A stretch of 40,776 bases of DNA from an uncultured Thiotrichales bacterium. Its GTDB lineage: Bacteria; Pseudomonadota; Gammaproteobacteria; CAIRSR01. Of this stretch, positions 33,456 to 37,933 are shown one piece after another (the stretch's first letter is position 1; each line of letters starts with the position of its first letter). Where the stretch lies: the NCBI GenBank assembly GCA_903824965.1, contig CAIJYR010000021.1, positions 1 to 40,776 of the forward strand. The letters run 5' to 3'. A program made the position numbers and the translations under genes. The notes under the pieces are model-generated. The model had not been told where the DNA came from. It was given only the letters and a program-made list of their open reading frames with translations, and ran no database searches.

Positions 33456-35603
33456 TTAGGTTCTCCGTCCACGACGGCGAAGCAGCGGATAGCCCATGGC
33501 AGCCAGCACCAGCATCGGCAGGGTTGGGTCAAAATCTCCCCCGCTGCGGCTTATGCTGCAACCACCGCCGCCAAAACTGCCTGGACTTCCAATGCTGCCA
33601 GGTTTGCCGCTGTTGGCTTGCTGATACGCTGCACCATACGATTGCACCCCGTTGATGGTGTTATTCAGTAAGTCCTTCTGGTAGGTCTTGCTGAGTGCTT
33701 CCGTTTTCATATCATTCGTCACGTTGGTCAGCACTGCACCCGTGAAGCCGGTATTGCTCGGGGTATTCGCTGATTGTGTTCCGGCTGTGGGCGTTGCACC
33801 AGGATCACCATTCAGCGAACCATCCAACCAGTGCATCATATTCACGATGAACTGTTGATTGCTGGCTGCCATGGAGTTGTTAAATCCCATCTGTGTCTTG
33901 CCATCGGCTGTCATTTGGGCACTCCACATGCCCGCCTCTCCCCACAGCGCCAAACGCCCAGCACCCACCTTGGCCGTCGCACCTTGAAGGGTATATTGGG
34001 TATACGGTGTAACTGCCCCCCCCTGCGCATTCGTCGTGACCAGGAGAGGCTCTGTCTTGATCCATTGGGCGGTGTAGGCTGGAATCTTTTGGGTCGACAA
34101 AATGGAGGTAATCATATTCGTCGTGGAGTCATCACTTGTCGCGCCGACATAGGCATCGTCCGCGAGGGTGAGCACATTGAAGGTACCATAACCGAGTCTC
34201 AGCACATCGGACTCGGTGACCTGGTTGATCAAACTTTGATCCGCAGTGGAGGGCGTGTACGTAAAGCTAGTGCCGGTAAAGGTCGTCAGGAAGGGAATTG
34301 CGGTATTGGTGTTCGCCATTCCACGCACGACAGGGTGATCCACCAGCCAACCGTCACCATCAGCGAAACCATGACCACTGGTCGTATTGACGATACCATT
34401 GTCTGGTTGTGCGCTTGCAACGGGAGCCAAACCGGGGGTCGCCGGTTGGCCTGCCCAAAATACCATGCTATTGACCTCACCACCGAGTTGTACCAACAAC
34501 ATGCTGATGTACTGTTTCAGGTCGTCTTTCACGGTTCGCGGCTTCACCCCACAATAGGTCTGCCCGTTGATGACGACGGGGTTGTTGGGATCAGGCATAT
34601 AGCCACCAGCAGGTGCCGGAGTAGCAGTCGTCATTTGCTGGCCCATGATCTTCTCGGCAGCGTTGTAGGTATTAATGCCAGGTACCGGATTGGGCAAGAT
34701 GTCGTGCGTTACATCGTAGAGGGTAAGGTCGTTGTAATCAGGATCAAATCCATACCCATCTGCGATGGAGAAACCGAATTTCTGCGCCAGATCAGCAGCA
34801 GCGCCCGGGAAGGGGAAGTGATCGGCGATCAAGAGAAGTGCACCACCGGCTTTTACCCAAGCAACCACGGCATCCATCTCTGCACTGGTGAACGCGTTGT
34901 AAATGGGTGCGACCCACTCATGATTGGTGGATGATTTTGCGTACCCCTGCGGGGTCGCAGGCGCTGCGGGGTACGGATCTTTTGCATTACATTGTGGTAT
35001 CTGTTGATTGTTGGCCGTATTCAGGGGATTTGAAATCACCAACACGTCACCAGCTTTCAACTGGGCCAAGGTACCCGATGCAGGGATATTACCATTGGCT
35101 GGCGTGTAGGTAAACGCAAGGGTAGGATTGTTTGTGTCGAAAGTTGGATTAATCGTGCTCTTCACAACCGAGCTAAAATCCTTCACCTGATAATTATCAT
35201 CAACGCCCAACAGTACCGAGAAGGGTAGGAACCGGCCTGTCCTCACGTGAAATTCGTTGTGCGTATCATCAATATAGATGGTCTTGGCTGAATCCTGTGG
35301 ATTGGTAATGTTGATAAACAAACCAGCACTCGTGTTTATAGAAGTAATGTTCCCATTGGTGCTGTTTGTTCCTTTCTGAAGGAAGCATTGGTCGTTTACT
35401 TGATTGCCTGCGCAACCAGGAGCCACATTTGCCAAACAATCTGCATAAGAGGCTGCGGCGCTCACTTGCATCGATCCGCTTGTCCAACAACTCTCAGGGC
35501 TGTTGGGCTGCGAATCTGCAAGCGTGGCCAGCGGCATTGCAGAGGCCAGCAGAGACCACAGCAACCGTGCGCTGCAATGGTGTCGTAACAGTTTTATCAT
35601 CAT
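33456..35603 (-). CDS. secreted surface protein with JDVT-CTERM-like sorting tail
   Basis: The 715-residue protein has a signal peptide (MMIKLLRHHC...LATLADS) and, at its C-terminus, a GGGGC motif followed by DPTLPMLVLAAMGYPLL and RRRGRR. This Gly/Cys motif, hydrophobic helix and basic end is the layout of the JDVT-CTERM sorting signal, processed by a CAAX-like intramembrane protease (MrtJ) encoded elsewhere. The middle (about 215-300) has MDAVVAWVKAGGALLLIADHFPFPG, a DUF4350/ThuA-like Rossmann region. Several Cys residues lie near the N-terminus. It is probably displayed outside the cell; its role is unknown. The start is supported by CGGAGAC upstream. Confidence 0.85.
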   Translation of the reverse strand: MMIKLLRHHCSARLLWSLLASAMPLATLADSQPNSPESCWTSGSMQVSAAASYADCLANVAPGCAGNQVNDQCFLQKGTNSTNGNITSINTSAGLFINITNPQDSAKTIYIDDTHNEFHVRTGRFLPFSVLLGVDDNYQVKDFSSVVKSTINPTFDTNNPTLAFTYTPANGNIPASGTLAQLKAGDVLVISNPLNTANNQQIPQCNAKDPYPAAPATPQGYAKSSTNHEWVAPIYNAFTSAEMDAVVAWVKAGGALLLIADHFPFPGAAADLAQKFGFSIADGYGFDPDYNDLTLYDVTHDILPNPVPGINTYNAAEKIMGQQMTTATPAPAGGYMPDPNNPVVINGQTYCGVKPRTVKDDLKQYISMLLVQLGGEVNSMVFWAGQPATPGLAPVASAQPDNGIVNTTSGHGFADGDGWLVDHPVVRGMANTNTAIPFLTTFTGTSFTYTPSTADQSLINQVTESDVLRLGYGTFNVLTLADDAYVGATSDDSTTNMITSILSTQKIPAYTAQWIKTEPLLVTTNAQGGAVTPYTQYTLQGATAKVGAGRLALWGEAGMWSAQMTADGKTQMGFNNSMAASNQQFIVNMMHWLDGSLNGDPGATPTAGTQSANTPSNTGFTGAVLTNVTNDMKTEALSKTYQKDLLNNTINGVQSYGAAYQQANSGKPGSIGSPGSFGGGGCSISRSGGDFDPTLPMLVLAAMGYPLLRRRGRRT

Positions 35604-36085
35604 CAATGTCTCCGTTTTTGGCTTGCTTTCTTGCAATCCACGCCCCCAATGGAAGAATGAGGGCGATGAGGAAGGAAGGCGGTTTCCCGTCTCCATCGGT
35701 ACTACACAAGGCACCTATGCGCCGAGGGACAGAAGCTCTACAGCGTCCCCTTCCTCGTTAATGGTGAGGCACTCTATACCGTCCAGACAGGCCAACTGGC
35801 CTACCTGCATACGTCAAGACGCCCTGGTGGGGTGCACACAGGGCGCTGGGTCAAATTGGCTTGAAGGTTCAAGGGGCCGCCTGTGCGTTGGCAAAGGGAA
35901 TCGGTAAACAGCGGGGGGAAGTATACGACGCATGATCCACGCGTATCCCAGAAGAGCGATGGTTGGGGGGGCACACCCAGCAACGCCGCATTAGACCATG
36001 CGGAACCTAGTTTGTTCAATCCTTTCGAGCAGTCCCACGTGGGGGGTGCACGTATCTACAAGGAGATATTTGCGGGACGACCGAG
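35604..36085. other. 482-base spacer without a supported gene
   Basis: No frame here has convincing protein features. A plus-strand stretch at about 35735-35865 reads LYSVPFLVNGEALYTVQTGQ and then stops, which is protein-like but has no start and no recognised family, so it may be a gene remnant. A perfect palindrome CCCACGTGGG lies at 36034-36043. An AAGGAGATAT sequence near 36060 looks like a ribosome-binding site but leads only to a very short frame. The promoter of the sorted protein gene should be here, but I cannot place it. Confidence 0.5.
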
Positions 36086-36607
36086 CTATGTGCTTGCGCG
36101 TTCCGCAATCCATTGTGGAACAATGGTTTTACCCTGCTGGTATTCGTCACGGTAAAGCTTTTTAACGGATGCTTTGTCGAGGCTCAACAGCGTACCCCCT
36201 GATTCGAAGTGCTGCTGAAACACTTTTCCCACCGCGAAGACGGCAACGCCATTCGTCATCGAATAAATCGTAGCCGAGGCAAGATACCCAATCAGTGGGA
36301 TGGCTGTGACCGCTGCTCTGGAGTGGCTGGCCACGTAAATAGAGCCAACACTGCCCACCACAGACAAAAACATCTTGATGAGCGCAAGGCGATTGGGGAA
36401 GGGAAAGCCGTATATCCTTGCTAGATCATCAATCATCATGATTTCGATGGCCGCGACCCCTGCCGCGTCCACGAGTGGCATCGGAATCAGTCCGCAGCCA
36501 ACCGCGATGATCACATTATGACGAATGAGTTGTTCTGCTTTGGCACGGCGTGACGCTTGTTCCGCATAGGTTTCCTGTTCGTAGGGGACATCCGTTTGGG
36601 TATTCAT
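36086..36607 (-). CDS. DUF697-like membrane protein, paralogue B
   Basis: The 173-residue protein contains the DUF697/YcjF-type pattern: IIAVGCGLIPMPLVDAAGVAAIEIMMI, then LSVVGSVGSIYVASHS and AAVTAIPLIGYLASATIYS, giving about three hydrophobic segments. The C-terminal AVGKVFQQHFESGGTLLSLD is nearly the same as in the neighbouring paralogue. Such modules occur at the C-terminus of membrane-associated GTPases and as free-standing proteins; the function is unknown. ATG 36607 has CGGAGGG 6 bases upstream. It lies downstream of paralogue A across a spacer with a repeat array and a terminator-like hairpin. Confidence 0.8.
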   Translation of the reverse strand: MNTQTDVPYEQETYAEQASRRAKAEQLIRHNVIIAVGCGLIPMPLVDAAGVAAIEIMMIDDLARIYGFPFPNRLALIKMFLSVVGSVGSIYVASHSRAAVTAIPLIGYLASATIYSMTNGVAVFAVGKVFQQHFESGGTLLSLDKASVKKLYRDEYQQGKTIVPQWIAERAST

Positions 36608-36644
36608 CAAAAACCCTCCGACCGATTGGAATCGTTGCGAATAC

Positions 36645-36730
36645 AAAAAAGACCCCGTAAAGACTCCGTGGACTCAGAACGAATGACTCAAAACAAATGA
36701 CTCAAAAAACGAAAGACTCAGAACGGGGCC
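36645..36730 (-). terminator. terminator- or attenuator-like hairpin between the DUF697-like genes
   Basis: On the minus strand an 8-bp arm (36730-36723, GGCCCCGT) can pair with ACGGGGTC (36658-36651) through one G-U pair, followed at once by six T (36650-36645). The loop is long, about 64 bases, and contains the GACTCA repeat array. It lies 38 bases before the start of paralogue B, so it would stop most transcripts coming from paralogue A, or act as an attenuator. Confidence 0.5.
36671..36724. repeat. four-copy GACTCA direct repeat array
   Basis: GACTCA occurs at 36671, 36685, 36699 and 36715, spacing 14, 14 and 16 bases. The extended unit is GACTCARAAC with AAT or AAA between copies. The array lies in the spacer between the two DUF697-like genes. 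Confidence 0.85.
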
Positions 36731-36792
36731 TCTTAACGCGGTTTCTTGGGGTGTACAAGAACCAACCTCTAGGCATCGAGAGCCGTAGTCGG

Positions 36793-37293
36793 TTACGCTG
36801 CTTTCGTTCCGCTGACCACGGTTTTGCCTTCTGCCAAGGTAGAAGCAAAATATTCACGCACCTTTTCAGGCTTAAAAGTCAGAAAGGTACCACCGGATTC
36901 GAAGTGCTGTGTAAAGACTTTCCCAATGGCATAGGTCGAAGCGCCGCCCAAGGTGCCCATGCTGACCATGCCCGCCATTTGTCCAACCACCGGAATCATC
37001 TTGACGAGGCTTGCGGTCGTCGGGGCCATCGAGACGGGCGCAACACCGCCCACCAAGCCCGAAATCGCCTCTTTGCCAAGGTTTTTGGAGAATGGAACCT
37101 CATAGACCTTGCTCAGACTGTGTAACATTTTGAGCTGTACCGAAGTCAGCGCCACCAAATCAACCATTGGGATTGGGAGGAGACCCGGCAGCACGGATCC
37201 GAGACTGTACTTGCGTACAATCGAATTGGCCCGTGCCAGCTTCTGGGCGGGGGTCAGCACCACTGCTGCTTCTTCTGCTTTTTCAGTAGCCAT
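36793..37293 (-). CDS. DUF697-like membrane protein, paralogue A
   Basis: The 166-residue protein has LGSVLPGLLPIPMVDLVALTSVQLKMLHSLSKVY, the typical start of free-standing DUF697 proteins, then SMAPTTASLVKMIPVVGQMAGMVSMG and AIGKVFTQHFESGGTFLTFK. It is clearly related to paralogue B across its length, so the pair arose by tandem duplication. It has an Ala/Glu-rich N-terminus and a Lys-rich C-terminus, both probably cytoplasmic. GAGAGGAA precedes ATG 37293, and a near-consensus promoter lies about 50 bases further upstream. Confidence 0.82.
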   Translation of the reverse strand: MATEKAEEAAVVLTPAQKLARANSIVRKYSLGSVLPGLLPIPMVDLVALTSVQLKMLHSLSKVYEVPFSKNLGKEAISGLVGGVAPVSMAPTTASLVKMIPVVGQMAGMVSMGTLGGASTYAIGKVFTQHFESGGTFLTFKPEKVREYFASTLAEGKTVVSGTKAA

Positions 37294-37345
37294 CGATCGG
37301 TTCCTCTCGAAAACAGGAAAACTCACTTAAACACATACCACTGTT

Positions 37346-37374
37346 ATTATACCATTTGTACCATAACTGTCCAA
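37346..37374 (-). promoter_or_regulatory. strong sigma-70 promoter for the DUF697-like genes
   Basis: On the minus strand TTGGAC (37374-37369), a 17-base spacer and TATAAT (37351-37346) are close to consensus, with TG one base before the -10 (extended -10). It lies just after the PAP2 gene and about 52 bases before paralogue A. This is the best promoter seen in the window. Confidence 0.8.
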
Positions 37375-37390: not shown

Positions 37391-37933
37391 CTAGAAAAAA
37401 CCTCTGACCAACGGTAGGGTGAATACGGCGATGAAAGCCCCAAAAGCAGCCCCAGCGAGGACGTCAGAGGGATAGTGTAGCCCAAGCACGACCCGTGAAA
37501 GGGCAACCAGCCCCGTAAAAGGGCCTACCAGCCACACAATCATCGGGTGGTAGCATACGGCAATGATGCTGAAGGCAACGGCGTGGAGCGTGTGACCTGA
37601 GGGGAAACTGTACTGGTCTAGGGGGATGCTTCCTAGTCGGATGCGTCCCTCCACTTGGTAGGGTCGTGGACGGGTGGTGCCCATTTTGACCCCTTTGTAG
37701 ATCGTGACGCAAAACAAACCCACAATCGACAGATGTAGCACGGAGGGCAGTTCCCGCACCCCATAGCAGATCGGAAGAGAGAGGATCAGGGTATACCAGA
37801 ACAGGCCATCTCCTAGCCGACTCACCGTGGTGAAAAGCCATAGCCCCAGTGGACGCTGGCTCACCCGGTTCGCGGCTAGGCACAAACGCAGCTCCCATGC
37901 AATCACATGGGACAGAGACAAGGAATAACGCAT
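37391..37933 (-). CDS. PAP2-family membrane phosphatase
   Basis: The 180-residue, five- to six-helix protein has the three PAP2 phosphatase motifs: KMGTTRPRP (KX6RP), FPSGHT and SRVVLGLHYPSD (SRX5HX3D). Enzymes of this kind remove phosphate from lipid pyrophosphates such as undecaprenyl pyrophosphate, or from phosphatidate, at the inner membrane. Which substrate applies cannot be read from the sequence. It is divergent from tatA; the 275 bases between (37934-38208) contain the tatA promoter and no supported gene. Confidence 0.93.
   Translation of the reverse strand: MRYSLSLSHVIAWELRLCLAANRVSQRPLGLWLFTTVSRLGDGLFWYTLILSLPICYGVRELPSVLHLSIVGLFCVTIYKGVKMGTTRPRPYQVEGRIRLGSIPLDQYSFPSGHTLHAVAFSIIAVCYHPMIVWLVGPFTGLVALSRVVLGLHYPSDVLAGAAFGAFIAVFTLPLVRGFF

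Follow-up and report, generated by a model that had tools for sequence, protein, structure and literature searches.

Internal terminators are documented to reduce the expression of genes behind them, and terminators are also known to be read through (PMC10450193, PMC6131387). Terminator loops are held to 3-13 nt in TransTermHP, with a median of 4 (PMC12207403). A short loop is usual in an intrinsic terminator and not a strict requirement. In pil1 of Streptococcus gallolyticus, repeats together with a terminator form a phase-variable attenuator that acts via a translated leader (PMC3894217).

The locus considered here is in an uncultured Thiotrichales bacterium (contig CAIJYR010000021.1; the 40,776 nt analysed are called the window) and has two tandem genes, A and B, with a terminator-like hairpin in the 185 nt between them. 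It is probably best explained as an intrinsic (Rho-independent) terminator after A, kept in position in two relatives but with its loop swollen by duplication, B being expressed via read-through.

The gene pair and its surroundings

The products of A and B match the DUF697 profile (PF05128) across most of the domain, with 42.0 and 55.7 bits, respectively, against a curated cut-off of 27.7, and are 32% identical over 146 amino acids, so that the tandem DUF697-like paralogues of the original prediction are upheld. Both are stand-alone proteins of 166-173 amino acids, in contrast to the other DUF697 matches in these genomes, which are within open frames of more than 500 amino acids. Neither has a sequence match in PDB, and the predicted, all-helical structure of A (mean pLDDT 72) gave no meaningful fold match.

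Four genomes of the order were searched: this one, one of the same genus (G001), one of a sister genus (G002) and a third relative, in which the pair is missing. Orthologues of A are 80% identical in G001 and 73% in G002, and those of B 78% and 69%; as the pair is in both, the split between the paralogues predates that between these genera. Over the stretches searched, stand-alone homologues in Leucothrix, a Thiotrichaceae MAG, Roseibium and Chelatococcus lack a tandem partner.

Directly upstream of A and in the same direction is a gene for a PAP2-family phosphatase, which is not beside A in G001, where a divergent caspase-domain gene is found instead, and no PAP2-like frame adjoins A in the G002 stretch examined. 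The conserved block thus starts at A. B is followed by a gene for a protein with the C-terminal sorting tag JDVT-CTERM, which in the window has a weak DUF4350-like match and relatives of which follow the pair in G001 and G002; next after it, in the window and in G001 (there from frames read), is a gene for an outer-membrane-efflux-type protein. Between B and the JDVT-CTERM gene is a promoter-like site that 17 of 200 shuffles equalled, a hint that this gene may have its own transcript. Elsewhere, in three genomes, stand-alone DUF697 genes that are A-like adjoin an ABC exporter scoring above the cut-off for TIGR01194 (cyclic peptide export), a neighbourhood that is a possible functional link for DUF697. 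A further DUF697 copy in this genome (G000:C138:15687-16128, L066) is apparently split over two frames and may be a pseudogene or reflect a frameshift in the assembly.

Table 1. Features of the A-B locus (window positions) and of the DUF697 loci with an ABC exporter (own coordinates)
Feature	Position	Strand	Details
JDVT-CTERM protein gene	33456-35714	-	after B
Promoter-like site between B and JDVT-CTERM gene	35990-36019	-	TTGAAC-18-TGnTCTAAT
Gene B, DUF697 protein, 173 aa	36086-36607	-	ATG 36607, end 36086; GGAGG upstream of ATG
Downstream arm of terminator stem with T6 run	36645-36658	-	ACGGGGTCTTTTTT
Two near-identical 11-mers: downstream arm and its loop copy	36648-36669	-	on +: AAAGACCCCGT, AAAGACTCCGT
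Tandem array, units of about 14-16 bp, four TGAGTC copies	36671-36725	-	unit about CGTTYTGAGTCATT; most of the 64-nt loop
Upstream arm of terminator stem	36723-36734	-	AAGAGGCCCCGT
Small weak hairpin between A and terminator	36740-36763	-	folds at -6.8 kcal/mol; neither relative shows it
Gene A, DUF697 protein, 166 aa	36793-37293	-	ATG 37293, end 36793
Promoter-like site before A	37346-37373	-	TGGACA, 16 nt, extended -10 TATAAT (TG before -10); 11/12 consensus
PAP2-family phosphatase gene	37391-37933	-	directly upstream of A
DUF697 gene with ABC exporter	L060:4688-6984		this genome; next to PKS-like gene
DUF697 gene with ABC exporter	L061:6096-8479		G001
DUF697 gene with ABC exporter	L035:4989-8386		Leucothrix arctica

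The hairpin between the genes and its loop

The original prediction of a hairpin with a repeat-bearing loop, ending in six T, was confirmed. An inverted repeat of 12 pairs (arms 36723-36734 and 36647-36658) encloses a loop of 64 nt, and the T6 run (36650-36645), 37 nt ahead of B, overlaps the stem base, part of it being paired. Such a combination of stem and T6 arose in six of 2000 shuffles of the spacer and is found only once more when both strands of the 40-kb window are searched. The stem core has 9-10 pairs, six of them G-C, and in three folding contexts the stem prevails in the predicted ensemble, with pair probabilities of 85-99%; the whole spacer is no more stably folded than shuffles (z -0.92). 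The G+C-rich stem and the U-run directly after it are those of an intrinsic terminator, while the 64-nt loop is not short as are those in G001 and G002, and the element is accordingly classed as terminator-like with an atypical loop and presumed to terminate transcription.

Canonical intrinsic terminators directly follow A in both relatives, AAAGGGGTTCCGTTT-cgat-AAACGGAACCCCTTTTTT in G001 with a loop of 4 nt and GAGACCCCGTTT-ccaaa-AAACGGGGTTTTTT in G002 with one of 5 nt, and have T-runs that begin 53 and 51 nt, respectively, beyond the A stop codon. The G002 arms (GAGACCCCGTT / ACGGGGTTTTTT) are alike those of the window (GAGGCCCCGTT / ACGGGGTCTTTTTT), one difference being a change from an A-U to a G-U pair. 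As this likeness, 12 of 14 matches, is within reach of shuffled spacers, it does not prove the two terminators homologous; their common descent is likely from position. With the loop left open, the stem energy in the window (-15.5 kcal/mol) nearly equals that of the hairpin in G002 (-15.8), that in G001 (-22.9) being stronger, which makes partial termination plausible; termination could also be weak because the loop greatly exceeds the usual lengths. Of the spacer conservation that was looked for across relatives, then, the terminator has it, by position, and the repeats do not.

The four predicted copies of GACTCA (TGAGTC on the strand of the genes) are present at 36671, 36685, 36699 and 36715, in an array of period 14 with 3.8 copies and a 79% match; not one of 5000 shuffles gave even three TGAGTC in 60 nt. 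The last copy extends 3 nt into the upstream arm, and the downstream arm is identical at 10 of 11 positions to the adjacent loop segment, which suggests that the loop grew by local duplication; the near copies of arm and loop, taken with the array unit that enters the other arm, make this the simplest history. That the array is itself structured was rejected, since 331 of 500 shuffles fold at least as well as the loop; a dispersed repeat was rejected, as the spacer and repeat pattern have no other place in this genome; and a known RNA family was rejected, there being no Rfam match in the window. The special role that had been envisaged for the repeats is not borne out by these results or by the absence of the TGAGTC array from both G001 and G002.

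Transcription of the second gene

In place of the near-consensus promoter predicted ahead of A there is indeed a strong promoter-like site, its score being reached by one of 200 shuffles of the upstream region; no such site is recognizable upstream of A in G001 or G002. The A-B spacer of the window shows no sigma-70-like promoter, its best score being reached by 198 of 200 shuffles, and this includes the place right before 36607 where a separate promoter would have spoken against the original prediction. Since the promoter-like site before A is strong and the spacer has none that can be recognized, B message in this species most likely comes from read-through. Codon usage, for which A is at percentile 70 in this genome and B at 16, shows no such order in G001 or G002; it gives no clear signal of expression of A over B and does not discriminate.

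A distinctly less probable arrangement is that A and B are transcribed as separate units, the terminator doing no more than ending A and B having a promoter of a kind that the scan does not recognize. Terminators of such strength are usual at transcription unit ends, and there would be room for a promoter after the T-run in the relatives, with 288 nt before B in G001, where B may have its own promoter, and 63 nt in G002, whose best spacer candidate scores above the shuffle mean (8.24 versus 7.2), though 55 of 200 shuffles reach it. In the window, however, only the 37 nt are left after the T-run, and they, like the rest of the spacer, are without a sigma-70-like site.

Regulation of the terminator, whether by translation of a leader ORF across the upstream arm or by a protein that melts the hairpin on binding UGAGUC repeats, is very improbable. 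The sole ATG ORF available, of 24 codons (36776-36702), does cross the upstream arm and stop in the array, and the U-rich single-stranded repeats could bind a protein, but the ORF has no Shine-Dalgarno-like sequence, its like occurs in 178 of 1000 shuffles and it is in neither G001 nor G002. The terminator fold has no strong antiterminator competitor, and neither an Rfam match nor conservation of the repeats points to a regulatory sequence, so that the attenuator of the original prediction is not sustained in its regulated sense. Just as little is to be expected of the array as a variable-number repeat, in which gain or loss of units would change the loop length and hence the A:B ratio, giving heritable variation among strains. 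A repeat of this type in the loop of an intra-operon terminator would make the ratio of two paralogous proteins evolvable, like a dial, with no need of leader translation, and the odds of this are similarly slight. The array does fall squarely in the loop, slippage can alter the number of tandem units of 14-16 bp, and modulation of a terminator by repeat number has its precedent in pil1 (PMC3894217). Against this, a single copy-number state is known, the array is absent even from the relative in the same genus, its units have already diverged, which would lessen slippage, and the pil1 mechanism requires a translated repeat leader, not found in the window.

On the preferred reading, that of a constitutive terminator after A, RNA polymerase that initiates at the promoter ahead of A would mostly halt after A, and the fraction reading through would furnish B mRNA, with A expressed more than B. 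In this species only, local tandem duplication inside an existing terminator would have enlarged the loop from about 4-5 nt to 64 nt, and the array, rather than being a sensor, was most likely left behind by slippage, with a neutral or mildly tuning effect. How strongly polymerase would be stopped may depend on the loop, since a long loop may close more slowly and so lower termination. B, presumably lacking its own promoter, likely depends on read-through, or else on a promoter type invisible to the scan, and A is likely in excess. The idea that read-through sets the ratio of the two proteins remains plausible given a promoter-like site before A, a terminator between the genes and a spacer without a sigma-70-like promoter, while the part assigned in it to the repeats is unsupported.

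If the terminator works, it explains how two old tandem paralogues could come to differ in amount, and its swollen loop offers a natural experiment on the effect of loop length on termination. Wider importance is limited by A and B being proteins of unknown function.

Relation to described terminators and attenuators

With pil1 (PMC3894217) the locus shares short tandem repeats and a stem-loop terminator ahead of a gene, but in pil1 the repeats are in a translated leader peptide, the length of which they alter, whereas those of the window are in the terminator loop and a leader ORF is unsupported. With the intra-operon intrinsic terminators of an archaeon (PMC10450193) and of E. coli (PMC6131387), where read-through is partial, it shares the stem, the T-run, the co-directional genes and the expected downstream polarity; the loops there are of about 4 nt, and here the loop is of 64 nt and filled with a tandem array. 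The element adds one modest case to a known kind, the intra-operon terminator, and is mostly an ordinary one.
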